A stretch of 64,000 nt of DNA from Tremella fuciformis (lineage: Eukaryota; Basidiomycota; Tremellomycetes; Tremellales; Tremellaceae), in contig CP136498.1 of NCBI GenBank assembly GCA_032768795.1, forward strand, positions 62,001 through 126,000, read 5' to 3'. Positions within the stretch are counted from its first letter, which is position 1, and every line of letters starts with the position of its first letter. The notes beneath the pieces are model-generated. The model had not been told where the DNA came from. It did no database searches and saw nothing but the letters and a program-made list of their open reading frames with translations. Positions 22,373 to 54,562 of the stretch are shown here, in pieces. The position numbers and the translations under genes are program-made.

Positions 22373-22391
22373 CCTCCCCTCGCGAGCATGT

Positions 22392-31183: not shown

Positions 31184-31193
31184 AGCAATGGAT
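31184..31193 (-). promoter_or_regulatory. Chr-C self-priming primer-binding site
   Basis: Element-sense ATCCATTGCT, two bases inside the 5' LTR edge (31196), is the exact complement of AGCAATGGAT in the LTR at 31358-31367. That lies about 35 bp downstream of the TATA box (TTTATA, about 31404), where transcription should start. This matches the Tf1/sushi self-priming design. Confidence 0.72.
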
Positions 31194-31195
31194 AC

Positions 31196-31704: not shown

Positions 31705-31709
31705 GATAG

Positions 31710-31793
31710 GCTCACGTGTCTGACAGGCGTGCTGGGCTGGAACGAGGCTCGTAGGCGTGCTTTGGTGATCATGGAGGCGTGGCCAACGTGACA
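31710..31793 (-). repeat. Chr-A 3' LTR, second part (84 bp)
   Basis: GCTCACGTGTCTGACAGG to GCCAACGTGACA. It completes the LTR begun at 19117. The purine tract GAGGGGGGCAGAG lies directly inside it (31794-31806, element sense). Confidence 0.92.
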
Positions 31794-32253: not shown

Positions 32254-32266
32254 GTTGCTAGGCAAC
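32254..32266 (+). promoter_or_regulatory. Inverted repeat GTTGCTAGGCAAC upstream of the Chr-A accessory gene
   Basis: GTTGC and GCAAC arms around TAG, 158 bp before the presumed ATG. The same 13-mer occurs twice upstream of the Chr-B accessory gene. It resembles the RFX-type X-box (half-sites GTTGC and GCAAC). A TATA-like GGTATAAACC is at about 32358. Confidence 0.6.
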
Positions 32267-32423
32267 AAGTCGCCAAACTGTCGTGAAAAGTCGTGTTGTC
32301 TGCTCTCGTCGTCAAGTGCCCTCTCGTCCCTCGTCCCCGCCATGTCCCCTCCAAAAGGTATAAACCCCCCTCGACAAGGCTACTCGTCCCGTCCATTCCA
32401 AACTCTCCACTCCAACGCATCAT

Positions 32424-34252
32424 ATGTTCTCCAACGCCACCGATCCCTCCCTCAAAATTGTCCTCCGAGGACGACCTCTGCGCCTGGTCACCATGACCAA
32501 AACCCCTTCCCCCTGCCCCACGACGCCGCCGTCCTCTGCCGAGCCGGCTGTCGACGCTCTTCCTCCCCAACTGTTCCCTCAATGGGCAGTCCGTCCTCGC
32601 ACTCCGGAGCCCACACCAGTCGAGGAGATCGACGAGCTTGTCAATGAGCTCGACTGGTCGGATGCCGCCAGTGCTGCGCCAAGCGGTGAGTGATTGTCGA
32701 GCCACCCTACTGCTTGTATTGATGCCCAGGGCGTACAGCGATACTGCGCTTGCTGGCCGACATACACGCCGAGATCCGTCGGCACCAGGGGACCGTCAGA
32801 GCCGCTAGGGAGAGTAGCTGTGCTACCTCCTCTATGTCCAGCGGCTACTCAGACGCCTCGCCCTTGTCCTCCCAGGCGTCCGACGTGGCTTTTGCTGGCG
32901 AAAGCCGCTATCGCGAAGCCCGCTCCCTGCCGTTCGAGCCAGTCTCGCCTCGGCCTCTTCGCCCCTACGTTGGTGGTGGGACTGGGTCCCCCATCATACC
33001 ACCATATCCCCTCGTCCCCCTCGGCTCGCCTATCCTTCTCCTTCCCCCGCCTTCTATGCCTCCGCCATCCCGCTCTCCAACTCCGGCAATCAACCCACGC
33101 CGCCGGCGTCGAGTCGAGTTGCCCGGTTCCCCGGGTAACACTCCCCTGCCGACCATACCGCCTCCCCTCTCCCCAACCCCAAAGCGTCGTCGCGTGTCGC
33201 CTGTTGGCGGCATGTACTCCTCTCGCCTGCGTTCTGCCTCAACCCGGTATCTTGGAGTGTCTGAGGTAGCCGATGCTCTCCTGGCCGCCGTGGACAACGC
33301 AGGTGTAGGAGAAGACGTCGTGGAGGGGAGCATCTCGACGGGAGAGGGATCCAAAGCAGGCAGCGAAGGATCCGATGGGGAGGGTGGTGTGGCGTCGTTG
33401 AGGCGACTCGAGGCTGGCCCTTGAGTCCGGTGTAGGAAGGCGCTGGACCGCGCCTATTTCGGTACGTTTGTCATCTGCTGAGATCCCCGCTCATTCCCAG
33501 GGCCATTCTACCCGTCGTTCGACCGGGGATCGAATAGGACGCTCCCATGGGCCTTGGTGCGTTATCATCTTCTATCCTCCTGTCATCTCACGCTGATGTT
33601 GCAGTCTCAGGCAAAAGGGCGACCTCTCCGCACGCTCAACGGCCGCCAGCGATGCCAGCGGTGTTGTACGGACAACTTGCCGTGTAGGGTCCTAGACGGA
33701 GGAGGGCCGAAGATGAAGTGCTACACCTGTGGCACGGCCACGGGCTGCTCGTTCAACTCCAGCCCGACTCCTCGACAACCCACCGGCTCGTCCTCGACAC
33801 CCAGAGCTCGCCGGGCTGTGAGTTTCGCGGATGTCGACCCGCCTTTGCCGACTCCCGCCCCCACGCCTGTTGTCGGCCCGGCCGCCTTCACCGACCGACT
33901 TTGCTGGTCGGTTTGTCAACCCGTGCCGGCTCCCGTGCCGCCTCCGACGCCGCCTCCGGTGTCGACTCCTGCCCGCCCGTCCGCGCCAGCTGCCTTGTCG
34001 TGGACTCCCTCGACGAGGCTCAACATCGGTGTCCTCCAGCACCATGTCACGCTGGCCCAGTCCATCCTGGCAGACAGGGCGTACCACGTCGAGGAGGCGA
34101 GGCAGCACGCAAGGCTCCTGGGGCTGGATGTCACGATACCTCTCTGTCTCTGTCCAAAGGCCCGTCACTGGGTGACCGAGACTCTTCGACTTTGGCGAGG
34201 CGGGGCGAGACTAGGAGAGAAGGGCGAGGGCAAGGGCTTGGAGGACTCGTAG
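32424..34252 (+). pseudogene. Chr-A opposite-strand accessory gene, Zn2Cys6-like protein
   Basis: Exons 32424-32685, 32730-33461, 33501-33556 and 33605-34252 join in frame through GT-AG introns of 39-48 bp. The product is about 565 aa. An in-frame TGA at 33422-33424 in exon 2 is best explained by CGA to TGA, a CpG mutation. Exon 2 is Pro/Ser-rich with a basic patch (RRRRR near 33100). Exon 4 has the cysteine cluster CX2CX6CX11CX2CX5C (RCQRCCTDNLPC then CYTCGTATGC, about 33653-33749), then Pro-rich sequence and a C-terminal helix region. The first five cysteines fit fungal Zn(II)2Cys6 spacing. DNA or RNA binding is inferred. It lies between the pol end and the 3' LTR, opposite to gag-pol. No signal peptide or membrane segment, so it is not env-like. 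Confidence 0.68.
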
Positions 34253-35056
34253 AGCCTCAACGAGTGTTGACGAGGGTAGCCGAGGTTGACTAGGCAAGGC
34301 GAGGCAAGGCAAGGCGGGCCGACAAGTGCTAGACCTTAGCAGCTGTTGGCGGGACGGAGCGAGAGAGAGTAAGTGAGGGAGTAGTCCCATGCAACTCAAT
34401 TGCGAGAGTACTGGAGTTCTACAAGGGCTCTGCGAGCCTTATGTATCCTATGGCCCGTCCGTCGATTCTGCGACTCTGTCTCTGCGAGCTCGACAAGGTT
34501 TTGCCCAATGTACGTCGAGCTCATTGTTCTCTCGTTTCCCTTAGTCGAGTTTGCCGCATCCGGCGAGCTCGCTGAGTAAGCATCGAGGAGGCCTATTGTT
34601 CTTCGACGGCGAGCATGGCAAGCACGGCAAGTCTCGAAGAGTTCCTTGCTGTCGACGAGAGCTGTGGTGACGACGGGACTTAGCTGTGCGAGAGATGCAT
34701 CCTTTTGTCCGACGAATGCGGTAATTTCACGTGGGTCGGTCTTGACGAGTCGCGGCGAGCTTCGGCGAGTGCCGACGAGGACTCGACTCACGTTCCTTTG
34801 GCTCGGTCTTGCTCGGTCTTGGTGCTGCTTTGGTGTCATTCGTGACACTGGACCTCAGGGCGATGGTTGGGCCCATGTTCGACGACGTGGCGGAGGCGAG
34901 TGGTTCGGCGTCGTGAATGTAGATAGTGTACATAGTTCTTTCTTAGCTCATGTTCATATGTCGTGTTGTTCATGTTGTACAGGGGATGCAGGAATAGGAC
35001 TCAGCTTGGGTGACGAATCTCGATCCAGATCATCGTCACCGCCAGTAGTCTATGCG
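34253..35056. other. Chr-A spacer between accessory gene and integrase end
   Basis: Probably the 3' untranslated regions of two convergent transcripts. Short frames exist on both strands but none resembles a known protein. It has GACGAG/GGCGAG-rich low-complexity stretches near 34270-34310 and 34740-34800. Confidence 0.4.
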
Positions 35057-36354
35057 TTATATTCCTCTTGGTTTCCCTGGGTTCCTCTTGTGGAAGCTCT
35101 CGACGCTTTTGAGAGCACCAGTAATGTTCTCCACTGGTTCCCAGGTCGTCTCCTCATCTGTTCCTTCGTACCCCACCCACTCGACAAGGTACTCCACCTT
35201 TCTGCCCCTTTTCCTCGAGTCGACGACGTTCTTCACCTCATAGCTAGGGCCCTCGTCGTCGACCTCCACTGGTGGCGGAGGGTCGTAGGTCTGTCCAGGG
35301 ATCCTCGGCGGGTGGTATGGCTTAAGACGAAGGACGTTGAAGACCGGGCTCACTCTCATCGTCGCTGGCAGCTCCAGCTTGTACGTTGATGGCCCCGTCT
35401 TAGCGAGGATCTTGTATGGTCCCCCCCATTTGATGTCGAGCTTCTTCGAGGGTCGACGAGTCTTGATGTTCTCCATTGACAGCATGACCATATCATCCAC
35501 TTTCAACACTGGCGCATCCCTTCTCTTTGCATCGTAATACTTGGCGTACCGCTCATTGGCTTGCTGTATGGCTTGTCGGCAAGATCGGTGCACCTCGTCG
35601 AGGGACCCAAGCTTTTCCTTGACCAACGGTATCCCCGCCCGTTTGGCGCTCTCTCTCAAGTCATCCGTCCATCGCGGCGAGTACCCAAAGTTTGCCTCAA
35701 ACGGGCTCATCTTGATTGCCGAGTGCTGGGTATTGTTATAGGCGAAGGCTGCTCTCTGCAGCAGACTCGACCAATTGTCTTGTCTGTGATCGCAGAATAC
35801 CCGTAGGTACTGCTCAAGGACCTGATTGATTCGCTCTGTCTGCCCGTCGGTTTGAGGATGGAAGGCTGTCGACAGGCTGATCCTGATCCCCAGGGCCCCA
35901 CACAGTGCTCCCCATAGTCGACTAGTGAACTTGCTCCCTCGATCAGATACGATGGACCTTGGCAACCCATGCTGCGCCACGACATTGTCGATGATGAGGT
36001 CGACAAGTCCCGCCGTTGTGAGGCGAGTCGTTGTCGGCACGAAGATAGCCCACTTCGTCGGGCGGTCTACCACGACAAGGATGGAGTTGAAGCCCTGGCT
36101 GCCGAGGAGCTCCTCGATGAAGTCCATGGAAATTGCTTGCCACGGGCCTTCCGGGACTTCGAGACTCTGGAGGAGACCGTGAGGGCGCTGCCTGCTTGTC
36201 TTTGTCCTCTGGCAGATGGCACAACCCTGTACGTAGGCCTCGACATTGCGTCGCAGCCCCAGCCAACAGACGTCCCTCCTGAGCAACTCCAACATCTTGG
36301 TGATTCCCGGGTGTCCCGCTAGGATCCCCTCATGTCGATCCCGCATGGCCCGGA
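35057..36354 (-). CDS. Chr-A pol, integrase and chromodomain
   Basis: Begins after TRIM-A at LRAMRDRHEGILAGHPG. The zinc finger HHCC ends in CAICQRTK. Catalytic residues lie in SMDFIEELL, VSDRGSKFTS and DGQTERINQ. The conserved AFAYNNTQHS segment is present. The C-terminal chromodomain includes YEVKNVVDSR and EYLVEWVGY, then TTWEPVENI. The frame is open to the stop at 35057. It continues the pol of 36864-38213 once TRIM-A is removed. Confidence 0.92.
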
Positions 36355-36359
36355 GCCGC

Positions 36360-36511
36360 TGTAACAATGCCAATAACCTACCACATAGCTATTGCACTGT
36401 CCAGCTAATACCACTGCACCAAAAGGGTCACGATAACCCGAGTCTGACCGAGACTCGCGGTTTGTGGTACATATAGGCTTGCAAGGTGGCGGTGTCACGT
36501 CCGACGTGACA
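36360..36511 (-). repeat. TRIM-A 3' LTR (152 bp)
   Basis: Ends (plus strand) in the perfect 19-bp inverted repeat TGTCACGTCCGACGTGACA at 36493-36511. Confidence 0.88.
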
Positions 36512-36706
36512 CTCTGCCCCACCTCCCATAGGCGCGCCCTTGCGCCTATTGCCCCTCCCCCGAGGTGCAAGCCTATCTGGAACCCGAAAAGGATCCCCTA
36601 GCAGCCGCACGTGTCCTACACGAAGGCCCAGCGCCAGGTCTTTTCAAAACACCGTCTCATCCCACTCTGGGAATCGAACCTAAGTGTCCTTAGACTCGGG
36701 TTATTA

Positions 36707-36858
36707 TGTAACAATGCCAATAACCTACCACATAGCTATTGCACTGTCCAGCTAATACCACTGCACCAAAAGGGTCACGATAACCCGAGTCTGACCGAGA
36801 CTCGCGGTTTGTGGTACATATAGGCTTGCAAGGTGGCGGTGTCACGTCCGACGTGACA
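36707..36858 (-). repeat. TRIM-A 5' LTR (152 bp)
   Basis: Identical by eye to 36360-36511. The same 19-bp palindrome is at 36840-36858. A Pol III A-box-like TGGTGCAGTGG lies on the minus strand at 36758-36768, and a B-box-like GGTTCGATTCC at 36670-36680 inside the element. Confidence 0.88.
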
Positions 36859-36863
36859 GCCGC

Positions 36864-38213
36864 CCATCGCCCTTGCCAGTGAGGTATAGCCGTCCATTGA
36901 GTCGCAGGGCCCCGCCAGCCTCTATCTGGGCTCGCGTGGGCTCGTCGAGGCCCATCCTTTGAACCAACCCAAACAGTTTGGGAAAACCTGCCGCATCAAT
37001 CACCACCCCGTTCTCCTCCTTCTTGATTCTCTCCAGCTCTTCTCCAGCATGCTCGAACTCCTCATCCTCCTCCCAGATGCTCTGAGTACCCGTCTGCAGA
37101 TCCTCTCTTGCCTCTGGATCTGGGCTCGACAAGGCTCGTCGAGGCTCCTCGATGAGTGCCCGAAGCATGTACCCCAGCGACGTCTCGACCTTGCTTCCTT
37201 GGTCAAACCCAGGTAAGGCCTGCACTCGATCCTCCAGGTCCAATCCATCAGGCTTGTAGTCAGGCCTCCTTGACAGAGCGTCTGGGTAAGCCGCTTTGAG
37301 CCCGGGACGATACACGATTCGGAAGGAGAATCCTGCCAGGGCGTCGACCCATCGCGCAACCCGCCCACTCAGTTTCCTCGGCTCCATTCAGTAGCTGAGG
37401 TTGTGGTGATCCGTGAGGACCGTACAGCTTACTTGCAGGAGGAGGTGCCGCTTCTGTTTGAACGCCATCACTATCGCCAGGAACTCCTTCTCCGTAGTTG
37501 TCCAATTTAGCTCTGCCCCCGAGAACGACCCAGATTCGATGGCCACCGGGTGCTCGAGGCTCGTCGAGGGGTTAATCTGCGATATCACAAACCCCCACCC
37601 ATAGAGCGAAGCGTCGGTCTGCACGATGGTCTCAAATGCAGGGTCGAAGTGGGCCAATACAGGGGGCTCGCTCATTCGCCTTTTGATCTCTTCGAAGGCT
37701 CTTGCCTGCGGGTCTCCCCAACCAAACGGAACTCCCTTCTTTGTCAGCAACACTAGGGGCAGCGCTACCTTGGCAAAGTTTGGTACGAAGCGGCGGTGAT
37801 AGTTTGCCAGACCCAAGAACCGGCATACTTCGAGCAGGTTGCTGGGTGCCGGGAACTCGACCACGCCCTTCACATATTCCGGATTCGCTTCCACACCTTC
37901 CCGAGAGATGACAAACCCCAGGAAGTCGACCTTCCTCCTCTCAAACTCGGACTTTGACGCCTTCACGTACAGTCCCGCTTTCCGCAGCACCTAGAGTACG
38001 GCTCTTGTGAGGGAACAAAGTTCGTCGAGGCTCTTGGCGTGGACCAAAATGTCGTTGATGTAGATGACCACCCCTCGCCCTACAAACTCTCTGAGTACTT
38101 CGTTGAGGAAATGCTGGAAGACTGCTGGCGCGTTCTTCAAGCCATCTCGCACAACCAAGGACTCGAACATCCCCAAAGGCATCCTAAAGGCGGTATAGGC
38201 TTCGTGTCCTGGT
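36864..38213 (-). pseudogene. Chr-A pol, RT C-terminal half and RNase H
   Basis: Begins at the Chr-B junction with LGMFESLVVRDGLKNAPAVF. RT has VVIYINDILVHAKS, where the catalytic motif reads YIND instead of YIDD. RNase H includes VQTDASLYGWG and VLTDHHNLSY. In-frame stops occur at about 37993 (TAG) and 37387 (TGA). This part of the copy is therefore inactive. Neighbouring pieces are 35057-36354 and 52079-53495. Confidence 0.9.
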
Positions 38214-38985
38214 TGTCAGGAAACCGACATGGCATCCTGACCACGAGACTACCACGAGGCAAATTCCGACGGAAACATCCAAAGGATCCTACGAACCAAA
38301 GAACGTGAGTACGGTAGAACCGTCACTATTAGTCACGAATAACTACGACTTGCTCTTGAAGGCGCTGGAACAACCTGGAGAACGATAGAAGGATACATCT
38401 CAGTCTTCCATCGGCCGATTTGAGATAGGAACGCACACAAGGACAAGAGTCAGGTCCGCGATAACGGAGGATAGAGTTATCTCACAGTCAGGGCCATGGG
38501 ACGGAGACCAAGGACGATAAGGACGACGACGGGCACGCAAAGAGATTAGATGCAAGCCAGCGCGGAGAGAAGACGATAGAAGAGAGGAGAGACGACGAGA
38601 GAATACTAGAGAATATTGGGAACGAGTAGAAACGACTGGGAGAACAATGGAACGATCCACGAAGGACGATGCTAGAAGGATCAGAGAGAGAGCGGGCGAG
38701 AGCCAGCAGATACTTAAGAAGGAAGATCGCAGAGGAAGCTCCTCAGCGATCTAGTTAACTAGTCCTCTAGATAGAACGTCTACTTAGAGAATCGACCGTA
38801 CCAGTGACGAGAGGTAGATAAGTGAAGTGAGTCTTGATCGCTCCTCACCCAGCTTGGTTCCACTCTACTCTTGTTCGTTACTATCTGTTACGAATAGTCG
38901 TTGATAGTTAGCAACTTGAACCGATAGATTGATTTAGGTGAGCTTTAGTTGGATCTAAAACAGGTCACCGGGTACAGGTCTGACA
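38214..38985 (+). repeat. Chr-B 5' LTR (772 bp)
   Basis: TGTCAGGAAACCGACATGG to GGTACAGGTCTGACA. A TATA-like TACTTAAG at about 38711 precedes the inferred transcript start AGCGATCTAGTTA at 38745-38757. Confidence 0.93.
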
Positions 38986-38987
38986 GA

Positions 38988-39000
38988 TAACTAGATCGCT
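38988..39000 (+). promoter_or_regulatory. Chr-B self-priming primer-binding site
   Basis: TAACTAGATCGCT, two bases after the LTR, is the exact 13-nt complement of AGCGATCTAGTTA at 38745-38757. No TGG-initial tRNA-type site is present. Confidence 0.78.
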
Positions 39001-39034
39001 CATATCCTTCGACAAGCCACCAAATCAAGACGAC

Positions 39035-40282
39035 ATGTCCTCTGCACCTACGACCGGGTACGGCCTTAGGAACCGAGGCGCGACAGGCAATCCCGACGCA
39101 GAGCATGAGCTGATCACTCCTCCCATTGGGACTACCACGGAGGAAGGAGAAGGAGCTCAAGGTACCCCAGGCGTGTACGAGCCAGGCGCTCAAGAAGACA
39201 CAATGGAGTCTACCCAGGATGATGGGCTCTCTTCGATCAGGACCCAACTCGACAAGATTGGTGAGGCACTACTGCTCTTGAGTCAGAATCAAAGGATGAT
39301 GACTGAGCATCGAGTGAACCAATTCGAAACTAATACGAACAAATCGAACAACAAGGAACCAAAGGTCAACTCTCCGGACGAGTATCAAGGAGAGAGGAAC
39401 AAACTCACCGGATTCTTGACGCAGTGTCAGCTGGTCTTCGACTTACAACCAGCCCGATACGCCACCGACTATGCCAAGATCCGATATATGATATCGTTCT
39501 TTAGGAAGGCGCCACTGCACTCTATTGAGGCGCACTTAGCTAAGGATGTCGACGATCAGCCTAGATGGCTTCACGATTACGGGTTGTTCATCAAACACAT
39601 CAAACGAACCTACGGAGATCCAGATGAAGTTCATACAGCCAAACGGAAACTATTAGCGATCCAACAAAAGTCTTCTGTTACGAATTACTTTGCAGAGTTC
39701 GAACAGTTATCATCATCATTGCTGGATTGGCCCGATTCGGTTCTCATCGCCAAGGCTAGGGAAGGCTTGAAGCCCTCTCTCAAGGACGCCATCGCTACCA
39801 AGGTGGAGGAGATCCCTAAGACCTGGAACGACTTTGTCACGGTGATCACGAGACTTGATGAACGCATGTTCGAGAGGGAACAAGAGAAGAAGAACGAACA
39901 AGGACGCCCAGAGAGGCACGAACAACGACAAATAGAGACGAATAGTGGGCGAGTGCGACCAACTGTTACCAGTTTTAACCGCTCATCAGAAACCAGTACA
40001 GTCAAGAGCACTCAGCCACCGCGTGCGACCACCCCATGGAATGGCAACCCATTTGCGGGCCTGGGTATGCGACCACGCCTGAGTGAGTTCGAGAAGCAGA
40101 GACGAAGGGATTCGGGCTTATGCTTTTCTTGCGGACAGAGTGGTCATCAGGCCAAGGACTGTTCGCAATCGACGCGATCTCAAGGAACGGTGGTCTCTTC
40201 CAATGCTACGAATACCTACCAGCGTACCACGACCCCTTCTACGAGCTCGCAACAGTCAAAAGTAAGCGCCCCGTCGAATTGA
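39035..40282 (+). CDS. Chr-B Gag (415 aa)
   Basis: ATG 49 bp after the 5' LTR. The gag core includes LTGFLTQCQLVFDLQP and DVDDQPRWLHDYGLFI. A Glu/Arg-rich linker precedes the C-terminal zinc knuckle CFSCGQSGHQAKDC (CX2CX4HX4C). It forms the particle and packages RNA. Its end overlaps the pol frame by about 160 bases, so pol is probably reached by a ribosomal frameshift. Confidence 0.93.
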   Translation: MSSAPTTGYGLRNRGATGNPDAEHELITPPIGTTTEEGEGAQGTPGVYEPGAQEDTMESTQDDGLSSIRTQLDKIGEALLLLSQNQRMMTEHRVNQFETNTNKSNNKEPKVNSPDEYQGERNKLTGFLTQCQLVFDLQPARYATDYAKIRYMISFFRKAPLHSIEAHLAKDVDDQPRWLHDYGLFIKHIKRTYGDPDEVHTAKRKLLAIQQKSSVTNYFAEFEQLSSSLLDWPDSVLIAKAREGLKPSLKDAIATKVEEIPKTWNDFVTVITRLDERMFEREQEKKNEQGRPERHEQRQIETNSGRVRPTVTSFNRSSETSTVKSTQPPRATTPWNGNPFAGLGMRPRLSEFEKQRRRDSGLCFSCGQSGHQAKDCSQSTRSQGTVVSSNATNTYQRTTTPSTSSQQSKVSAPSN

Positions 40283-43200
40283 GAGGAAGTCGGGGCTCAA
40301 ACAAATCTCTCACTCTAGGTGCGGCATTCAAGAATTACAACGGAACAGAATTTATTGGGGACGAACTACTACCAAAAAGATCAATTGTATGCTACGATAA
40401 TATGACCGAGAATCTACGATTAAGGGTACTCCTAACGGGCGGCCGGGCAAAGCTCCAGTGCGGATTCCCTTCCTTATATTGCCAACAAGGATATCTCTCC
40501 AACATCCTGTTCGACACTGGAGCCAGCTCCTGCTTTGTCGACTGGAGGTCAGAGATAGCCCAGACCTTAAACCACACCGTGATTGAACGACCCAAACACG
40601 TAGTAATGTTTGATGGACGTACAAGCGCGTTTGGTCTGGTTCACACCTATATCGACACGAACATCCAACTTCATCCCGAATATCCCCCAATAGATGTCAA
40701 ATTGCTTGTGACAGAATTAAACGGGGCCGACATTGTATTGGGATGGCCGTGGATGGCCGAGAACGGAGTAACCATTGATGCGAGGCATGGATGGGCTGAG
40801 TTCCCGTGCACTCCTGTGGTGAGAAAACCACACAGACGGAAGGGGAAGGCTTACAGGAAGCCCTATGCGTCTGGGACGACCTATCCCAACAACATCGAGA
40901 TGGCGGAAAGCGGCAATCGATGGAGACCGATCTCAGTAAGCCAGGAAAGTTTTGACGAGGCTGGAATAAGCAACGATGGCGAAGGAGCAGCGAAAACGAA
41001 TAGCTACGAAGAAACGCCAGTAGCGGACGATCCTCTTGAAAGGGCTGGAACGGAAGACGGGACTCCCGTACTCAGTGACCCTTCTACGATGGATGACGAG
41101 TCAAGCGATGATTCTAGTGGAATCTACGACGACTACAAATACGGCAAGGATGAAGCCGGAACCGATCCGGAGGACTGGACGGCAATCGAAGATCTGCAAG
41201 ATGTGACTATTTGGAACAAATGGGGACGAATAGCACTTGAGGAGAAACAATACGACCAAGCAAGGGTAGAGGTGAACGGAGTAACCGCCGGTGAGAGCGA
41301 CTCGTACACGACCTTGAACGAGAAAGAACAGTCTTCGGCAAAGGAAAGCAAGATTCCGGAGGCCTACCAAGGATGGGAGGACTTGTTTGAAGAACCGAGT
41401 GGGTCGGCAGCGTTGCCACCACATCGACCGTACGACCACAGGATAGAACTAAAGGAGGGAGGTAAGCTGCCTCTTGCTCCTCTCTATCAACTATCTCCGA
41501 AGGAAAAGAACGCCTTACACGAATACTTGGAAAAGGAGAAAGCGGAAGGAAAGATATACCATTCGTTATCACCTTATGGATCGCCGGCGTTCTTTGTCCC
41601 AAAGAAAGACGGACGCTTACGACTAGTCGTGGACTATCGCAAGCTAAATGAAGCCACAGTAAATAGCGCCTATCCGTTACCATTAATCTCGCAGATCTTG
41701 GCAGATCTACGTGACGCACGGTTCTACACAAAGCTGGATCTGGCAGGGGCCTATCAGCTGGTGCGGATGGCTGAGGGACACGAACACCTGACGGCGTTCA
41801 GGACTATCTTTGGTATGTTCGAGTCCACTGTGATGAGGGATGGCCTAAAAGGGGCTCCCGCAACGTTCCAACATTTTATGAACGATATATTTTCGGAACT
41901 AATAGGGAAAGGTGTCTACGTATATATCGACGACATTCTCATTTACGCGAAAACGGTTGAAGAACTTCGAGCTCTTACCAAGACAGTCTTCGATATACTA
42001 CGACAATGGGAGCTTCGACTAAAAGCAGCAAAATGCGAGTTCGAGAAGGACAGCATTACATTCTTAGGACACAGGGTGTCTGCAGAAGGGATAGCAACCG
42101 ACGAAGGACTAACAGAAACTATTAGGAACTTCCCTATCCCGACTACACAGAAAGAACTACGATCTGCGGTGGGTCTTTTCAGTTACTACCGAAGATTTGT
42201 ACCCAACTTCTCGGGAATTGCGAGACCTCTCAACAAGTTGATGTCGAAGAAAGCAAGGTTTATTTGGAACGAAGAGGCTGACAAGGCATTCCAGTCGCTG
42301 AAAGGTGCCCTGTCATCACCGCCTATTCTCGGGCATTTCGATTCAGAGCTCCTGATAGAGGTACACACGGATGCCTCGGACTTCGCCATTGGGTATGTGA
42401 TCTACCATGTGGACCGCAACACCATGAAGCGAACGGCAATCCATTATGGTTCAGCAAGACTCAAACCGAATGAGGAGAACTGGACTGTCACCGAGAAGGA
42501 ACTATTCGCAATTATTTATTGCTTACAGCATCATCGAGCATATTTCGAGGGCAGTAAATGGCCAATAATCTTCGTCACCGACCATCAGCCCCTGATAGGG
42601 TATACCATGCCAAAGCAGGTCTCGAACAGGGAGGCCAGATGGGCAGAGATCCTGGCTCGCTTTGACCTACGGATAGTGTACACCCCAGGTAAGGGCAATG
42701 TGGTACCAGACGCCCTGTCGCGACGACCTGACCTGGCAGGGACAAGAGGCGGCGACAGTTACCAAACGGACTCGAAGGTTCGACAAGTGATCAAGACAAT
42801 CGATGCTGAGAACGAATTGGACCAAATAGTGACGAATTTAGAAGAATCAAAGAAGACAGCTTCAATCGTCGCAGATCAAGAACCCCTTGAAATGTATGGG
42901 GTTACAACAACGGAATCACCCAGCACGGCAGACCCGAACACGTATGACTGGATCATCGATGGAAGCAGAGTAAGGGAAGGGTATATGAAGGACGAGCATT
43001 GCAGGCAAGTCATCGAAGGGATTGCCGCACAGAAGCCGCTCGAAGATATTAGGAACGAATTGCGACTATCAAGCGATACTAGAGTCGAAATAGACCAACA
43101 AGGGTTCATCCGCATCGACGGCAAGATCTATATCCCAGACTACGATGATTTGAGGTTCAAGATCATAAATTCAAGACACGATACTCCGTTGGCAGGACAT

Positions 43201-44577
43201 CCAGGAGTTAAGAGAACTATGAAGGCGGTCCAACGGGACTATTACTGGCCTGGGCTCACTGCGCACGTCACCAAGTACGTGTCGAGCTGCACAGCCTGTC
43301 TGCGCACCAAGCCTTTCAATCAGAGACCAAGAGGGCAGCTACGAACCTTGGAAGTTCCACGCCTACCGTTCGAGGACATCACGATGGACTTCATCGAAGA
43401 GCTGCCAGTCTCAAACAACTTCAATTCAATACTAGTAGTGGTCGACCGCTTGACAAAGTACAAAGTGCTCATACCCACGGTAACAAAGTTGAACGCACCC
43501 GAAATGTGTTCGTTACTATTCGATACGGTTTTCTCCAGATACGGACTACCGAGCACAATTGTATCCGACAGGGGAAGTAAATTTGTGTCAGACTTCTGGA
43601 GGAGTCTAGCGGAGCAATTCGACATACGATTGGCGCTCAGCACGGCAAGAAGGCCGCAGACTGATGGTCAAACCGAGCGACATAACCAGAAGGTAGAGGG
43701 ATTCATGAGGATCTTCATCAACTTCGACCAGGACAACTGGGCACCGTTGTTGGATACGATAGGAATGACCCCGTTCTATGCGTTACACGGTTTTCATCCT
43801 AGATGGGTTCAGGAAATATTAGAACCAAATAAAGTCGACAATCAGCAAGCAAGACAACGTGCGAACTCAATGAATGAAGTTCACTCAATCTGCAGGGAGA
43901 ACTATGTACAAGCAGGAAAGGAGATGGAGAAGTACTACAACAGGAAGCACCAACCGCAAGTCGAGATCAAGGACGGAGACTATGTCATGTTAGACCTTGA
44001 GGGCCTTAACACGAAACGACCCAGCAAGAAAATCGACTACAGGCGAGATGGACCCTTCCAGGTGGAAGAGTCAATAGGAACACACGCGAAGAAATTGAAG
44101 TTACCAGCGACGCTCAAGATCCACAATGTTTTTCATGTGTCCAGACTGCATCCAGTCGACGTTATTAGCGTCAAAGACAAACGAATACGACCAAAAGGGC
44201 AACCACAAGGACTACCAACTATAGTGGAGCCTGACGCTGAGTTTGAAGTCGAGAGGATTCTGGACTCGAGGAGAACAAAGAATGGGAAGGTCGAGTACCT
44301 AGTGGAGTGGAGAGGCTACGGGGATGATGAAGTGGGCTGGGAGCCAGAGGTGAACGTCAGGAACGCGGCAGAGGTTGTGAGGACATTCCACGAGCGACAC
44401 CCCGACAAGCCCATTGGTCACACATTCGGAGGAATCAAGAAAGATAGGAGCTATTCAAAACGAATAAAGACAAATAGCGACAAGGAGGAGCCTGTACGAT
44501 CTACCAAACGACAACGAACTCAAGAGTCAGTCAGGCAAGAGTCCGGGCACAGGCATAATCTAAGAAGTCGTCAGTAA
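40120..44577 (+). CDS. Chr-B Pol polyprotein with chromodomain (up to 1485 aa)
   Basis: The first ATG lies inside gag, so the true N-terminus depends on the frameshift. Protease ILFDTGASS near residue 129-137. An acidic linker follows. RT VVDYRKLNEA with catalytic VYIDDILIY near 600. RNase H VHTDASDFA and VTDHQPLIGY. Integrase zinc finger HPGVKRT with CTACLRTK near 1027-1066; catalytic ITMDFIEEL, VSDRGSKF and DGQTERHNQ. Chromodomain EFEVERILDSR and EYLVEWRGYG near 1375-1405. Odd: after DNWAPLL the conserved segment with the AFAYNN motif is missing in frame (LLDTIGMTPFY), a loss of about 14 residues. Otherwise uninterrupted. Confidence 0.93.
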   Translation: MLFLRTEWSSGQGLFAIDAISRNGGLFQCYEYLPAYHDPFYELATVKSKRPVELRGSRGSNKSLTLGAAFKNYNGTEFIGDELLPKRSIVCYDNMTENLRLRVLLTGGRAKLQCGFPSLYCQQGYLSNILFDTGASSCFVDWRSEIAQTLNHTVIERPKHVVMFDGRTSAFGLVHTYIDTNIQLHPEYPPIDVKLLVTELNGADIVLGWPWMAENGVTIDARHGWAEFPCTPVVRKPHRRKGKAYRKPYASGTTYPNNIEMAESGNRWRPISVSQESFDEAGISNDGEGAAKTNSYEETPVADDPLERAGTEDGTPVLSDPSTMDDESSDDSSGIYDDYKYGKDEAGTDPEDWTAIEDLQDVTIWNKWGRIALEEKQYDQARVEVNGVTAGESDSYTTLNEKEQSSAKESKIPEAYQGWEDLFEEPSGSAALPPHRPYDHRIELKEGGKLPLAPLYQLSPKEKNALHEYLEKEKAEGKIYHSLSPYGSPAFFVPKKDGRLRLVVDYRKLNEATVNSAYPLPLISQILADLRDARFYTKLDLAGAYQLVRMAEGHEHLTAFRTIFGMFESTVMRDGLKGAPATFQHFMNDIFSELIGKGVYVYIDDILIYAKTVEELRALTKTVFDILRQWELRLKAAKCEFEKDSITFLGHRVSAEGIATDEGLTETIRNFPIPTTQKELRSAVGLFSYYRRFVPNFSGIARPLNKLMSKKARFIWNEEADKAFQSLKGALSSPPILGHFDSELLIEVHTDASDFAIGYVIYHVDRNTMKRTAIHYGSARLKPNEENWTVTEKELFAIIYCLQHHRAYFEGSKWPIIFVTDHQPLIGYTMPKQVSNREARWAEILARFDLRIVYTPGKGNVVPDALSRRPDLAGTRGGDSYQTDSKVRQVIKTIDAENELDQIVTNLEESKKTASIVADQEPLEMYGVTTTESPSTADPNTYDWIIDGSRVREGYMKDEHCRQVIEGIAAQKPLEDIRNELRLSSDTRVEIDQQGFIRIDGKIYIPDYDDLRFKIINSRHDTPLAGHPGVKRTMKAVQRDYYWPGLTAHVTKYVSSCTACLRTKPFNQRPRGQLRTLEVPRLPFEDITMDFIEELPVSNNFNSILVVVDRLTKYKVLIPTVTKLNAPEMCSLLFDTVFSRYGLPSTIVSDRGSKFVSDFWRSLAEQFDIRLALSTARRPQTDGQTERHNQKVEGFMRIFINFDQDNWAPLLDTIGMTPFYALHGFHPRWVQEILEPNKVDNQQARQRANSMNEVHSICRENYVQAGKEMEKYYNRKHQPQVEIKDGDYVMLDLEGLNTKRPSKKIDYRRDGPFQVEESIGTHAKKLKLPATLKIHNVFHVSRLHPVDVISVKDKRIRPKGQPQGLPTIVEPDAEFEVERILDSRRTKNGKVEYLVEWRGYGDDEVGWEPEVNVRNAAEVVRTFHERHPDKPIGHTFGGIKKDRSYSKRIKTNSDKEEPVRSTKRQRTQESVRQESGHRHNLRSRQ

Positions 44578-45186
44578 CTATTAGTCCCAAATAGCACTCA
44601 GTGCAATTGAAGACTTCATAGGTACAACGATAGATGACTATATGCTACAGTTCCCTATTCTTCCTCTTCAGCGACTCCAGAGCATGAACAGCTGCCTCGG
44701 CTTCACTTATCTGGGAAATGCGCGCATGTATATCCGCAAAAGTGCCCGAAGGAATAGTGACTGTGCCGGAGGTAGACGAATTCAATTGAGCCCGTTCTAG
44801 CCCCTTCAGGCCTTCCTTGAGGGAAAGGAAATGTTCTCGTAAAACCTGAAGATATGGCCCGGGGTCTGAGAAAGAACAGGCCGAAGTGCACACCGCACAG
44901 CGGATTGAGCCTGGCTTGACTCGACAAACAAGCTTGGCCTTGAGACAGCCTCGGCATGGTGGAACCGCAACCGGATATTTTTGCTCTTCGGCGAACTTTT
45001 CATTGGAAAGTGGGCGCGTGCCGCGAGCAGCACGTTTGGGCGGCGCCTCACCGGCCTTAAGTTCGGACGGCCGCTTGTAAGGTGGAGGGACAGCGACAGT
45101 GTGAGACTATTTGTTACTATTAAGCCCCAAACAGTGCGAAGTCACTTGCCTTCGGAACAAACTTAGACGGGGTCTGACTCGCGTGG

Positions 45187-45949
45187 TGTAAAGGTTCAGG
45201 TTAGCTGTGTAGAGAAACAGCTTACCTTCTCCTCACATATAATAATGCCAGCCTCTGTCTGTAAGACTGATAGCTGTGTTGGGTTCCTTCGCAATAGTCA
45301 ATGTCACACAGAGCAACACTAGTAAGTAAGTCAGTTAGGAAAAGTAGGAGGGCAGAGCCCAGACTCTGAGAGAGAGAGAGAGAGGAGTGAAGAAGAGTGG
45401 GAAGTCGGGAGTGAGAGAAGTAGGAGAAGAGGAGGTGATGATGGGTTCTCTCTCTCAGGCCTGGTTTATATACATGAAAGTCAGGCTGAGGAATCTACGG
45501 AGTACGTACGGTGTACGTACGATATCGTGACGCGGCTGAGAGGTACGGAAGGAGAATCTACTACAAGAGGAAACTATTCTACGGGAGACATGGGGAGGAA
45601 ACAGGCGTGGCTTAAGGGTCTGCTACGGACTGTCCAGACATCAGCCGTATTAGTGTGAGTGGAGCACGATTGTCAAATGGTGCAGGATCAGGCATGAGAG
45701 CTGAGGATCCTAGGTCGGATGATGTGTCGGGTAAGGTCGTATTGTATTGTAGGTGGGTCCGAGGTGAGCCAGGCTGTGATTTGGGCATCAGGCCTGAGGA
45801 TGGTGGATCGGATACGGCGTCGGGTGTACTCGTAGGTATGTCGGTTGATGTCGGATTGAATGTCGGATGAGGGGCAAAGGCAGAGGCCGTAGGGCTTTCT
45901 CCTAGTCATGTAGGGGACAGGCAGAGCGTCAGAGGGGCGGTCCACTACA
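45187..45949 (-). repeat. Gyp-D 3' LTR (763 bp)
   Basis: Includes an AG microsatellite near 45371-45391 and a TATA-like GTATATAAACC (element sense) near 45465-45476. Confidence 0.92.
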
Positions 45950-46739
45950 TCACCCCGGGTGGCAGAGAAGCTTGGTCCCCAAGCTTATGTGTATTTGAAG
46001 GGGTATGGATTGTGTGGTGCCAAGTGTTGGCAAGGGTTGATACAGTTGGCTTCAAGCAAGTATTGACTGGCAGTTGGGGATAATTGGCACTGTGATTTTG
46101 GCAGGAGTTGATGGGTGAAGAGTGATTGAGTCCAAGAGAGGGCCATTGAGTAGGCAAGAAAAGTCGATAGTGCGTGGATGAGTCGGTGGACTGTAGAGAG
46201 AGCTGTAGAGCTGGTGAAAGTGTGAGAGCCAGTTGGTGAATGTGTGTGAGCCTGCCAAGCTCATTTGCCAATTGTGAGATGCCTCATGTTGAGCCTTGCT
46301 GATTGTCCTATGTAGCATGTACACAGATTTCCTTGTTGTTCCCCCAAATGTTGTCATGTTACTTGTGCCCATGTTGTAGCTTCTTGCCATTTGTTTGGTG
46401 TGATATGCGGTCTCCTTGTTGGTCTTGTTGAATAGGTATCCAGATGCTTGCGGTTTTGACAAGCCAGTCATATGAAGTTTGACTCCAGGTGATAAGCTTG
46501 AACATGTTGTCGGTGTTGGTACAGTGTTGGTCAAAAGTGTTTTTGTTGAATGTGTGGCTGAAGGGGATATGATGTCGATGTATTACAGTACCATTTGGCC
46601 CTTGTAGTGACTGGGTAGTTTGCCCAAAGACTGCTAGAAAATTTCGATGATCCTTGGGTGTGTGGTCAAAACCAAAGACAAATCAAAGGTACTGAGCTAC
46701 TCGTCCTGCAAGCTGAGCTAGGAAGTCATTGATTTGGAG
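45950..46739 (-). other. Gyp-D 3' internal region, no intact frame
   Basis: Lies where RT, RNase H and integrase would be in a complete element. Only short frames occur and none shows pol motifs, so these domains appear deleted. A 20-bp sequence around GATTTGGAGCTAGGAAGTCA is repeated near 46728-46752 and may mark the deletion joint. Confidence 0.5.
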
Positions 46740-47150
46740 CTAGGAAGTCATTATTTGGGGAAGTGGATGTTGATCAGCTTTGTTAACATTATTGATTTTT
46801 CTGAAATCAATGCAAAGTTGTTCCTTCCCTTTCTGTTGCACCAAAATAGAGGGTAAGTCCACGGTGAATCAGATTCCTCAATAACTCCTTGTTTGACTGG
46901 CAGATTGTTGGTTACCTTGTTGGAGAAGTTGCTTGGCGGATTGAAGCTTTGATAGTCGGTTGAATAGTCGGTGGGATGGTCGGTTGGAAAGTCGGTCGGA
47001 TATTCGGTCGGATAGTCGGTCGGATAGTCGGTGAATAGTTGGTCGGATAGTCGATTGAATGCTTGGTTGGTGGTAGAGAAGCCATGGCTGGCACTGACAT
47101 TGCTAGTTTGAGTTAGGTTGCCACTGTTTGCCATCATTGTTGCCTGTAGA
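46740..47150 (-). pseudogene. Gyp-D pol relic: spacer and start of RT
   Basis: The frame contains a (DYPT)n repeat at about 46965-47050, then VIEESDSPW, matching the start of Ty3/gypsy RT. The following frame LCIDFRKINNVNKADQHPLP can be read after a shift of one base, so a frameshift is present near 46820. Homology stops soon after. Confidence 0.7.
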
Positions 47151-47267
47151 GTTGACTGAGTTGATAGGGGGCATGAATGTGGGATAACCCAAATGTTGTG
47201 GTAGAGTCACAGGTTGCTGTGAAAAAAAGTGTGTCGGTATGGGGGAATGTCGATTGATTGGGTAGGG

Positions 47268-48524
47268 TCAATTTGTTGGAGTTCCAGAGCTTGGTTGATG
47301 TGGGCAATCCCTTCTCCAGTGATATTCACCACAGGTACAAGGAGTCTTTGGGATGCTAGGCTGGTCCATCAAGCCTCTAGTCTGGCTAAGGTGGTTGCTA
47401 TCACTGACTCTTTGCGTAGGCACAATTTCATTTCTGTCTGTGATGTTGGGACCTTGGTGTGAGTCAAAGTTGCCTCTGAGGCCAGGCTCCACATCCATCA
47501 AGTGTCTTCTGAAGTCTTCCAGAGTCATAAGCGGCGTGATGCCTGCTTTGATCAATGGGTGCATGCTTACAGGTATTCCTGTCAGCAAGTCCTCAATCAA
47601 CTCTGCATCAGAAGTGCTTTGAGGGTAGACATAGCGCTGCAGCTTAGTTTTGTCCTGGAAATAATCTGTGAAGGTCTCATTCGCACGCAGAGTGCGGTAC
47701 AAACATTGCCTGCGCAGAGTAAGCTTGTGATTAGGCATGTAGAAGGCATTGCGCAAAGCATCTTTCCAAGTATCCCAAGTGCTGAGCTGTGTACGGCGTG
47801 CTGAGCCAAGGTGGGTAAACCAAGTGGAAGCTTTGCTGACCAGGATCAAAGGCAACTGCTGGAGAAGCGCCCTGTCAGAAGTGCCAGAGTACTCAAAGAT
47901 AGCAGAGACCTTTTCTATCCATTCGTCAACATCTTCATCATCCTTGCCTCCAAATTTGGGCAAGTCGGAAGCCTTTAGCTTAGAATGATTAATGACACCA
48001 GCTGCATCAGTATAAGTGGTACTGCGGTATCTAGTGGCCAACTGTAAGTCTTCCAGTGCCTGCTGATGCGCTTCTTCACCTTGCTTTGCTGCTGTGAGGA
48101 TGTCCTGCAGCTGGATAGCATGCTCTTGCTCTGTAGCACGAGTGTCATGCCTAGCCTGTTGAAGTTGCTGATTGGCATCATGGAGCTGCTGTTGAAGCAA
48201 GGTGATCTGAGCTTGCAGGTCAGTGATACTTTGCTGTTGTCCATCATGACTGGTGTTGTTGTTGTCATTGTCATGAACTGGGGCTGGAGTGGTGTAAGAG
48301 TCGGAGTCAGAGTCGGGGTTGTTGTTGTTGTCGTCGGTGTTGTTGTCGTTGTTGATGGTCCTATTGGTGTTGTTGATGGTCTCCATAGCCAAGGGGGTGG
48401 GGATTGAGTCGTTTCCAGTGTTGTTTTGGCGGTTAGGAATAGGAGTGGTTGGGTCCTCAGCAGTAGGTGCTGAAGGGACTGAAGTCGGATAAGGGTGCCG
48501 GCGGGTGGCAGGTCTGATAGACAT
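47268..48524 (-). CDS. Gyp-D Gag (418 aa)
   Basis: ATG at 48524. The N-terminus is low complexity with Asn/Asp runs, then a coiled coil (about residues 95-165, repeated Gln/Leu heptads). The gag core includes KFGGKDDEDVDEWIEKV and FYMPNHKLTLRRQCLYRTL. The terminal CTCGEYHWRRDC is a shortened zinc-knuckle variant (CX1CX3HX4C). The frame is open. As the only intact gene of the element it may supply shells for trans-mobilisation, but this is inference. Confidence 0.88.
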   Translation of the reverse strand: MSIRPATRRHPYPTSVPSAPTAEDPTTPIPNRQNNTGNDSIPTPLAMETINNTNRTINNDNNTDDNNNNPDSDSDSYTTPAPVHDNDNNNTSHDGQQQSITDLQAQITLLQQQLHDANQQLQQARHDTRATEQEHAIQLQDILTAAKQGEEAHQQALEDLQLATRYRSTTYTDAAGVINHSKLKASDLPKFGGKDDEDVDEWIEKVSAIFEYSGTSDRALLQQLPLILVSKASTWFTHLGSARRTQLSTWDTWKDALRNAFYMPNHKLTLRRQCLYRTLRANETFTDYFQDKTKLQRYVYPQSTSDAELIEDLLTGIPVSMHPLIKAGITPLMTLEDFRRHLMDVEPGLRGNFDSHQGPNITDRNEIVPTQRVSDSNHLSQTRGLMDQPSIPKTPCTCGEYHWRRDCPHQPSSGTPTN

Positions 48525-49144
48525 GTTGGCGATGTTTTGGCTTTTGGGATGAGAGTATCCTCTATGCCAAAGAGAAAGGTGGTGGTGTGCTGTAGTAGGG
48601 TTGAAGAGAGATGAGGGCGCACTGCAGCCCTAGAAGTAGTAGGTGTAAAGAGAGAAGTGCACTGGGGCACAGATGGTCAAAGCGCAATGCAGCTAGTACC
48701 AGAAGAGATAGAGGAGAGATGTGCACAGGGGCACAGTGCACAGGGGCACAGAGGAGCCTATAGCTCACCTTCTGCAGTAGGTCTTCCCAGAGTTCCACCG
48801 GAGTCTGAGGGGATAGCTTACCTAGTTGCACGAACTGATATGGGTAAGTGGTTGGCCAACCAGGGAGAGAGAAGAGAGATGTCGAAGTAAGAAAGATAGT
48901 CGAAGTAGGCAAAGTCAATGATGGTCAGGTAGCTAGTCTGACCAGATTGTGTTGTGTTGGGTACCTAATGAATTAGTTGTACAGAGGGATCCCTGTCTAT
49001 TGCTACAGTAAGGAAAAGAATATCACTCAGGTATTTTTGGTTGTATGTTGTTTTGCCTTATCCCTAAGGCTTTTGTTGAAGTGTCCTAATGTCCTGTGTC
49101 CATGTGGGTCGGATCTGATTCAAACTGGCCAGCAGTTGAAGCAA

Positions 49145-49290
49145 GATAGTCGGTCAAGTGTTGAAGGGTGTTGAAGGATGTTGAAGGTTGTTGAAGGTTG
49201 TTGAAGGTTGTGAAGGTTGTCGAAGGTTGTCAAAGGTTGTCGAAGGTTGTCGAAGGTTGTTGAAGGATGTCGAAGGTTGTTGAAAGAGTG
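49145..49290. repeat. 10-bp minisatellite GTTGAAGGTT in Gyp-D leader
   Basis: About 14 imperfect units (GTTGAAGGTT, GTCGAAGGTT) between the 5' LTR and gag. In element sense it is in the untranslated leader. Confidence 0.8.
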
Positions 49291-49414
49291 TGGAGGGTAA
49301 AAGAGTGTTGATTAAAGAGTGTGGTGGTGTAAAGAGTGTGATCCGACTGTACTGTATGATGTTGGTGTATGACTAATGGCTGAGGCAAAGAAAATCCCCA
49401 GAACGGACCCCAGA

Positions 49415-50179
49415 TGTAAAGGTTCAGGTTAGCTGTGTAGAGAAACAGCTTACCTTCTCCTCACATATAATAATGCCAGCCTCTGTCTGTAAGACTGATA
49501 GCTGTGTTGGGTTCCTTCGCGATAGTCAATGTCACACAGAGCAACACTAGTAAGTAAGTCAGTTAGGAAAAGTAGGAGGGCAGAGCCCAGACTCTGAGAG
49601 AGAGAGAGAGAGAGGAGTGAAGAAGAGTGGGAAGTCGGGAGTGAGAGAAGTAGGAGAAGAGGAGGTGATGATGGGTTCTCTCTCTCAGGCCTGGTTTATA
49701 TACATGAAAGTCAGGCTGAGGAATCTACGGAGTACGTACGGTGTACGTACAATATCGTGACGCGGCTGAGAGGTACGGAAGGAGAATCTACTACAAGAGG
49801 AAACTATTCTACGGGAGACATGGGGAGGAAACAGGCGTGGCTTAAGGGTCTGCTACGGACTGTCCAGACATCAGCCGTATTAGTGTGAGTGGAGCACGAT
49901 TGTCAAATGGTGCAGGATCAGGCATGAGAGCTGAGGATCCTAGGTCGGATGATGTGTCGGGTAAGGTCGTATTGTATCGTAGGTGGGTCCGAGGTGAGCC
50001 AGGCTGTGATTTGGGCATCAGGCCTGAGGATGGTGGATCGGATACGGCGTCGGGTGTACTCGTAGGTATGTCGGTTGATGTCGGATTGAATGTCGGATGA
50101 GGGGCAAAGGCAGAGGCCGTAGGGCTTTCTCCTAGTCATGTAGGGGACAGGCAGAGCGTCAGAGGGGCGGTCCACTACA
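49415..50179 (-). repeat. Gyp-D 5' LTR (765 bp)
   Basis: Matches 45187-45949 with three substitutions and one extra AG unit. The PBS lies at about 49412 downward. Confidence 0.92.
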
Positions 50180-51140
50180 CGTGGGCGGCTGACATGAACG
50201 TGGAATAGTCCTACAATTAGTTTCTATTTGTAACGAATAGGAACTACTCACAATGGCCAGAATCTCGTCGGGATCGAGTGATTCCGGAGTGGACGGAATG
50301 GGCTTGGTCTCGTCGAGCTCGCGAATAGGAGTATTGACAATGGCGCGTTGTTTCCCTTTGGAAACCTTCTTGTGAGGGGGCTCAGGCTCTGTCTCCGACG
50401 AGTCCAGCTCGTCTTCGTTGGCGGGAAGATCAGAGGAAAGAAGGAAGGCTGCTATTAGTTACGGATGAAATCGAATTCGAGCGACTTACTAGGGTCTTCA
50501 TCGACATTGCCCTCGGAATCAGTGTTCTCGGATTCATCTGGAAACTATTAGTAACGAATACGCACGAATACAAGAAAACAAACACACCTTTGGACTGGTT
50601 GTCAGCCTCCGGGGCGGGCGACGAAGTCTTGTCTTTGGCGGTGTTCGGAGGGGCAGTGGGGGCACGCTCGAGAGCAGCGGGAGCTGAGACGGTGTCGGCA
50701 GGGGCGAGAGGCTGGGTGACGCCTTCTCCGTCCGAGAGGGTGGGGAGGGCAGGTGTCTCGTCTGCTATTAGTAACAAATACAAGCGAGTAGTAATAACTC
50801 ACTCGGGTCTGCGTCCATCTGGGCGAGATCTTGTCGCGTGTCGTTAGACGGAGCCGACTCGTCCAACTCAGGCAGGGGCGTCATAGTGGGCGACTTGGAC
50901 TTGCGCGTGAAGCGTCCGTTATGCTCTTGGTCAGTAATAGCCACGAACATGATCGAGTACTCACACGTCGTTGGGAGGATGCGCGAGAGCGGGCCATAGG
51001 GATACGCCAAAGTCAAGAAAAGTAGAAGTACGAACGAACAACGAGAGGGCGCAGTCGCGCCCTTATGTATCCTGCGGGCGTCTATCGGCAAAACGGCGTT
51101 ACGAGTAAAAACGAGTATGAGGCAGTCGCAAGAACGAGCG

Positions 51141-51205
51141 GTTGCTAGGCAACTAGGGTGACAACTTGCAGATGCTCGACATGTACAAAGTCGTTGCTAG
51201 GCAAC
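51141..51205 (-). promoter_or_regulatory. Two GTTGCTAGGCAAC inverted repeats upstream of the Chr-B accessory gene
   Basis: Identical 13-mers at 51141-51153 and 51193-51205, that is 145 and 197 bp upstream of the ATG at 50996. The same 13-mer precedes the Chr-A accessory gene (32254-32266). Between these sites and the 3' LTR I see no other gene. Confidence 0.62.
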
Positions 51206-51306
51206 GGGACGATAAGCGACAACCGATAGGCGGTGTCAGGAACAAATAAAAATCAGTCGCGACTAATCTTATCATGAAGGGACTCATGATGTAAAGGAGG
51301 GAGGAG

Positions 51307-54538: not shown

Positions 54539-54562
54539 GAACTAGTCGTGTGAGAGGTAGAG

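Follow-up and report, generated by a model that had tools for sequence, protein, structure and literature searches.

Chromodomain Ty3 retrotransposons (chromoviruses) of the fungus Tremella fuciformis carry an accessory gene that is read against gag-pol, interrupted by short introns and kept by purifying selection. We describe it in a 64,000-nt stretch of DNA (C9:62001-126000, hereafter the window; source genome 28.14 Mb, 11 contigs), where two such elements, Chr-A and Chr-B, each hold a copy between pol and the 3' long terminal repeat (LTR), and in further copies from the same genome. A first-pass annotation of the window had reported a multi-exon, opposite-strand gene at this place in both elements, with exon phases joining at every intron; gene models and additional copies agree on both points, and its chromovirus label fits the pol open reading frames (ORFs). 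It had counted two families, and at least five carry the gene. The product is most likely a nuclear nucleic-acid-binding regulator of the element's expression or replication, a reading that we hold with slightly more confidence than doubt.

The antisense frame is a real protein-coding gene kept by purifying selection in families A-D, the families covered by our dN/dS estimates. These were made by the Nei-Gojobori method on chosen copies, six rows from family A and three from family B, with the window copy of family B taken in two pieces. All six pairs among the diverged family A copies L021, L033, L036 and L038 gave dN/dS of 0.19-0.29, and the diverged family B pair L042/L059 gave 0.22, well off the values of at least 0.95 in same-strand shifted frames; single pairs from families C and D gave 0.30 and 0.15. 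The range across all 15 family A pairs was 0.19-0.47, the highest involving the dead window copy (L009), and the window Chr-B gene gave 0.41-0.45 for its first piece and 0.07-0.15 for the second, which holds the cysteine exon. Substitutions by codon position numbered 103/56/209 between L021 and L038 (chi-square p 1.8e-22) and 48/32/109 between L042 and L059 (p 4.2e-12). A six-frame comparison counted 1-2 stop-bearing codons per pair in the annotated frame, namely the final stop and, for the decayed L036 and L038, one more, and 7-25 in the five other frames. The opposite-strand mirror frame showed dN/dS of 0.30-0.38 because third positions coincide, but it contained 10-17 stop-bearing codons. 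Frame conservation, cysteine conservation and dN/dS had been proposed by the first-pass annotation among the checks that could overturn the gene, and all three came out in its favour.

Family A was sampled at 30 loci, the window copy among them (of 41 matches to the Chr-A region). Its gene has four exons, three introns (44, 39 and 47 nt in L021) and encodes 556 aa; the frame is uninterrupted in 19 loci, and splice sites of all three introns are present in 27, the exceptions (L034, L035, L037) having an incomplete alignable part. For family B, 43 matches, many of them to an unrelated nested LTR, yielded 22 loci (L039-L060), which leave 20 other copies once the window copy (L039) is set aside and L058, the same copy as L060, is dropped. 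The family B gene has seven exons and six introns of 41-50 nt (five GT-AG, the last GC-AG), encodes 367 aa and is open from ATG to stop in 16 of the 20 copies; L041 and L052 have one stop each, L060 carries an insertion, and in L059, which is open, the first exon could not be aligned. GT/GC...AG ends were found at introns 2-6 in all 20 copies and at intron 1 in 19. No intronless copy was seen among the 30 family A loci and 20 family B copies. Introns on the antisense strand lie reversed in the genomic RNA, hence splicing cannot remove them from it and retrotransposition would carry them along, as the first-pass annotation had argued; the splice sites retained in 27/30 (A) and 19-20/20 (B) bear this out.

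Both window copies are defunct, and intact antisense genes of both families are present elsewhere in the same genome. The Chr-A copy is dead owing to an in-frame TGA and a solo LTR (34129-34847; its first 72 nt are matched at seven other places), and the Chr-B copy is broken, with a nested LTR element interrupting exon 6. The Chr-A gene had been placed at 32424-34252 with one in-frame TGA; the TGA is there, but a solo LTR is inserted in exon 4, hence the codons after 34128 belong to the LTR and the true 3' end lies at 34853-34916. Likewise, the Chr-B gene is present as reported, but its span of 44645-50996 (44645-50997 in our model) includes the nested LTR element at 45187-50179.

Family C was found with the family A exon (53% identity over the cysteine region), and a family C query returned 20 copies at >=97% over 268-270 of 270 residues along with diverged ones. 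The family B exon led to family D (C11:80914, E 0.0014), adjoining an integrase-chromodomain on the opposite strand, and a family D query to family E (C1:5073249 and others, E ~1e-5). The antisense gene is convergent with a chromodomain pol in all of A, B, C, D and E, as illustrated by a family C locus where the six-cysteine gene lies on the strand opposite the end of a chromodomain pol (L069) and by two family E loci (L076, L077); its place between pol and the 3' LTR is seen for A and B in the window, with C, D and E scored as adjoining and opposite pol. The two introns on either side of Chr-A exon 3 recur in family C with position and phase unchanged, after ...FFG (phase 1) and after ...WA[LR] (phase 0). 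As pol identity between families is 43% (A-B), 64% (A-C) and 61% (A-D), the antisense gene is spread over deeply diverged elements. Members of all five families, many in diverged form, sit on contig C11 (426 kb; L070, L072, L074, L077), which resembles a reservoir of old elements. At another locus (L078), a frame beside a weak family D match contains VHCVSLC... and is probably a host gene, presumably an exon like that of a dual-specificity phosphatase.

Six cysteines are the only invariant columns across 12 rows from the five families, with spacings of 2-6-11-2-5 (A), 2-6-8-2-3 (B), 2-6-10-2-4 (C), 2-6-8-2-4 (D) and 2-6-10-2-4 (E). The pattern CX2CX6CX8-11CX2CX3-5C of the first-pass annotation thus stands, and it is above chance: a scan for CX2CX6CX6-13CX2CX3-8C matched four times in the window (the two antisense genes and two low-complexity CAPCAPC stretches) and not once in each of 20 codon-block shuffles. 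The cluster is probably zinc-binding. It had been taken for the fungal Zn(II)2Cys6 layout (PF00172, Zn_clus; Gal4, Pho7), with which it shares the CX2CX6C first half, present in 12/12 rows, the CX2C in the second half and a weak profile resemblance. In fungal Zn(II)2Cys6 domains, however, the last cysteine spacing is 6-8, and in 12/12 rows here it is 3, 4 or 5, so that no second half of the form CX2CX6-8C was found; the element proteins of A, C and D also have few basic residues between Cys2 and Cys3. The proposed Zn_clus search matched none of the element proteins scanned (E<=10), and PF00172 run on this genome as a control gave 148 matches over the cut-off among 150 listed, of 199 candidates, with none of the 150 at an element antisense gene. 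Against PDB, a domain profile of eight rows placed LAC9, GAL4, Pho7 and a Pho7 synonym entry on top (E 3.9-5.4, non-significant), and one of twelve rows placed Pho7 on top in two entries (E 0.046 and 0.052, short of significance). Since the last spacing is 3-5 and PF00172 is unmatched, an assignment to Zn2Cys6 is not supported, and the product at best works like a zinc cluster. Basic stretches that read as candidate nuclear localisation signals are PKRRRV and RRRRRV in A, RKKGSKGKGKQR in B and KKGKGKGREKRRAR in C.

Families A and B share a putative promoter region. A TATA-like box lies ~60-75 nt upstream of the ATG in both; among seven family A copies compared it is TATAAA or TATAAG in six and ATACAAG in L036. 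Further out stands the palindrome GTTGCTAGGCAAC, on which positions 32254 and 51205, the two ends of the range given by the first-pass annotation, both fall. With one mismatch allowed it occurs three times in the window against 0.19 expected, and the same three sites, GTTGCC-T-AGCAAC on one strand, are the only window matches to the strict X-box, GTNRCC N0-3 RGYAAC as defined in passages of PMC10530576. Genome-wide (28 Mb), GTTGCYWRGCAAC is found at 85 places against 2 for a reversed control. Among the 50 of these listed, 18 are at family A and 25 at family B copies (43/50), and two (C4:89919 and 89971) show the 52-nt spacing of family B outside the copy lists of both families. The X-box is present in 27/30 family A loci, the other three beginning to match the query only at position 168, beyond the site, and as a pair in 20/21 family B copies, window included. 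L038, 75% identical to Chr-A, carries GTTGCCAGGCAAC, still a palindrome; conservation alone does not single out the X-box within family A, because the surrounding sequence is conserved too. The genome has one RFX DNA-binding domain (C1:4614642, E 2.6e-20), and the fungi examined in PMC2873420 have one RFX or none, with Crt1 acting in the yeast DNA-damage response. Host RFX may hence control the antisense gene in families A and B through the X-box. The Chr-B LTRs (38322-38336, 51415-51429) hold GTCACTATTAGTCAC, a looser X-box-shaped inverted repeat that also resembles, on the other strand, ACTAATAG, the intron-end motif of the antisense gene.

The palindrome may instead be bound by the element's own six-cysteine protein, or serve as a hairpin or insulator, possibilities that we regard as real but as the less probable account. 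Its symmetry, its pairing at a distance of 52 nt in family B and its rarity elsewhere in the genome would all suit such a role, but Zn2Cys6 factors prefer CGG half-sites, which speaks against binding by the element's protein. Families C-E, moreover, have the gene and no such site was seen in their stretches covered, and the genome does possess an RFX domain; the half-site GTTGCY also fits the RFX monomer site GTTRCY, as quoted in passages of PMC10530576.

In the explanation we favour, the gene between pol and the 3' LTR would be transcribed against gag-pol from a promoter of its own that lies within the element a short way upstream of the ATG, formed by the TATA-like box and, in A and B, the RFX-type X-box. 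The transcript would lose three (A) or six (B) short introns, and the predicted protein, with its basic, low-complexity N-terminal region and six-cysteine cluster, would enter the nucleus, act on nucleic acid and regulate the element; this regulator role is plausible, and the first-pass annotation had offered as a further possibility that the protein might counter host silencing. It would be expressed apart from the genomic RNA, like the nuclear protein HBZ in human T-cell leukaemia virus type 1 (HTLV-1). Somewhat doubtfully, we extend this to an old shared chromovirus regulator, in which the antisense gene would predate the split of at least five families and, in two of them, host RFX, which in some fungi acts in the DNA-damage response and the cell cycle, would time it. 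If true, elements would time a self-encoded nuclear regulator by the replication state of their host.

Several results weigh against the favoured explanation and its extension. None of the element proteins scanned has a Pfam match, PF00172 included, and they barely align beyond the cysteine cluster (matches of 37-44 aa in 5/6 A-D pairs, 82 aa for A-C). Structure models are weak, with a mean pLDDT of 55.7 for family B, and fold searches returned nothing significant; the helical tail described by the first-pass annotation appears at this low confidence in B, but in the window A copy the tail is partly LTR. Selection is tighter on pol (dN/dS 0.08-0.13, family B pol 3' ends). As for the X-box, 5/50 listed sites lie away from these elements, with other centres, L059 of family B lacks one in its locus, and none was seen in the stretches of C, D and E covered (L069-L077, which do not reach the upstream regions of D and E), therefore it is not a general part of the antisense gene.

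Among other explanations, a replication or integration helper is unlikely but deserves some weight; such a protein could act as a nucleic-acid chaperone, bring the pre-integration complex into the nucleus or assist the chromodomain integrase in choosing targets. The gene stands beside a chromodomain pol at every locus where pol was read, the protein has basic stretches, a cysteine cluster can act on RNA and not just on DNA, and nuclear import is also discussed in a plant review (PMC7264820). However, no packaging or integrase-like feature was found, and an antisense promoter of its own would uncouple the protein from gag-pol supply. That the elements captured a Zn2Cys6 transcription factor from the host and carry it as a passenger is improbable: the CX2CX6C half and the Pho7 rows of the PDB profile search are in line with it, but PF00172 is unmatched, no intact relative outside such elements turned up among the low-copy matches L070-L073, L077 and L078 (C10:13336, C10:798765 and C9:805215 being among those left out), and a passenger would have lost the constraint seen in all four families with estimates (dN/dS 0.15-0.30). 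Even less probable is that the antisense RNA matters and not the protein, double-stranded RNA against the element feeding or titrating RNA interference (RNAi). RNAi is possible because the genome has Piwi-domain matches (five matches at ~3 places, one with stops), but only a protein accounts for the codon-position bias, the frame-specific dN/dS and the invariant cysteines, and the gene does not overlap gag-pol. An annotation artefact, i.e. frames that happen to be open on a GC-rich strand facing unused sequence, has practically no chance of being right. GC-rich DNA does yield long chance ORFs on both strands, but the open frames and introns across copies, the few stops in the annotated frame and the invariant cysteines argue otherwise, and frame-specific dN/dS and splice-site conservation refute it.

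The window features are given in Table 1. Chr-A inserted before Chr-B, which entered Chr-A, and the nested LTR element came last, into the Chr-B antisense gene; the Chr-B insertion is recent, as its two LTRs are nearly identical. The remnant of the Chr-A 3' LTR is abutted by a different LTR copy (31191-31705). In the ORF of the Chr-A pol end, the first codons (36360 upward) are sequence resembling a terminal-repeat retrotransposon in miniature (TRIM). This TRIM-like insertion (36360-36858, 499 nt) has identical 152-nt terminal repeats, ~195 nt between them and a 5-bp target-site duplication (TSD) GCCGC. Another Ty3-like element (20244-31705; minus strand, gag ORF 29755-30801, pol ORF 27080-29839, inner LTR pair 22055-22354/26791-27090) had no six-cysteine gene in the window-wide cysteine pattern scan. 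A repeat array at 10840-11026 has a unit of ~21 nt of the TTCTCTATGAG/TTCTCTGTGAG type.

Table 1. Positions of the antisense genes, their upstream motifs and the surrounding elements in the window.
Feature	Positions	Strand	Basis or remark
X-box palindrome GTTGCTAGGCAAC, Chr-A	32254-32266	.	13 nt; 158-170 nt upstream of ATG
TATAAA box, Chr-A	32359-32364	+	~60 nt upstream of ATG
Chr-A antisense exon 1	32424-32685	+	ATG at 32424
Chr-A antisense exon 2	32730-33461	+	in-frame TGA 33422-33424
Chr-A antisense exon 3	33501-33556	+	
Chr-A antisense exon 4, up to solo LTR	33605-34128	+	Cys6 motif 33653-33748
Solo LTR within Chr-A exon 4, TGTCACGA...TCGTGACA	34129-34847	.	5-bp TSD CTGGA
Displaced 3' end of Chr-A exon 4	34853-34916	+	stop 34914-34916; comparison with L021
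First X-box palindrome, Chr-B	51141-51153	.	upstream of ATG
Second X-box, Chr-B	51193-51205	.	upstream of ATG; 52 nt from first
TATA-like GATACATAAG, Chr-B	51062-51071	-	upstream of ATG
Chr-B antisense exon 1	50965-50997	-	ATG at 50997
Chr-B antisense exon 2	50803-50923	-	
Chr-B antisense exon 3	50588-50761	-	
Chr-B antisense exon 4	50490-50537	-	
Chr-B antisense exon 5	50252-50448	-	
Chr-B antisense exon 6, first part	50180-50210	-	interrupted by LTR element
Chr-B antisense exon 6, remainder	45150-45181	-	outside duplicated CCACG
Chr-B antisense exon 7	44645-45106	-	Cys6 motif 44876-44956; stop
LTR element nested in Chr-B exon 6	45187-50179	-	5-bp TSD CCACG
Chr-A, Ty3 chromodomain element, Chr-B nested inside	31701-54981	-	sense strand -; LTR matches to intact copies, ORFs
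Chr-A 5' LTR	54578-54981		
Chr-A 3' LTR remnant	~31701-31793		
Chr-A gag ORF	53396-54541		
Chr-A pol 3' end (integrase, chromodomain)	35057-36388	-	convergent with antisense gene
Chr-B, chromodomain Ty3 element	38214-52078	+	inserted in Chr-A pol; TSD CTGGT
Chr-B LTRs	38214-38986 and 51306-52078		2 substitutions, 2 gap columns over 773 nt
Chr-B pol ORF	40087-44577	+	stop to stop; chromodomain at its end

For years antisense accessory genes have been described in LTR retrotransposons with no function assigned to them, and a 2020 review calls for a look at antisense and spliced transcripts (PMC7264820). One compact 28-Mb genome here brings together a defined cysteine cluster, introns that are conserved, selection that can be measured, a large number of near-identical copies and a candidate promoter switch. 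This makes it testable whether the elements supply a regulator of themselves in the way that HTLV-1 supplies HBZ, and illustrates how a gene in antisense orientation can allow introns to persist in a retroelement.

Accessory ORFs in antisense at the same position have precedents in plants (Retand, Grande) and in a fungus (Boty). The plant type, additional ORFs between pol and the 3' LTR (aORF-3R), includes maize Grande gene23, rice RIRE2, Retand TRP28 and PvRetro13, and according to PMC7264820 and PMC11963269, gene23 is driven by a promoter of its own and yields a nuclear protein, and TRP28 is predicted to bind DNA. These ORFs have the same place and antisense orientation and are conserved in most copies, and the fungal gene is likewise present and conserved in most copies of families A and B. 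They differ in belonging to plant elements, Retand being a non-chromovirus, and the fungal gene adds several conserved introns, the six-cysteine cluster and the X-box; the words zinc and intron are absent from PMC11963269. Closer in host is Boty brtn of Botrytis cinerea (Zhao et al. 2011), an antisense gene in a fungal LTR element with a chromodomain gag-pol, as described in citing papers (PMC8365987, PMC4227169, PMC7264820). New, as far as the literature was searched, are the several conserved introns, the six-cysteine cluster, the occurrence in five chromovirus families, the frame-specific selection and the X-box. HTLV-1 HBZ, a spliced antisense retroelement gene for a transcription regulator whose transcript starts in the 3' LTR (PMC1459196), offers a works-like parallel with no homology expected; it differs by that start in the LTR and by encoding a bZIP protein rather than a cysteine cluster.

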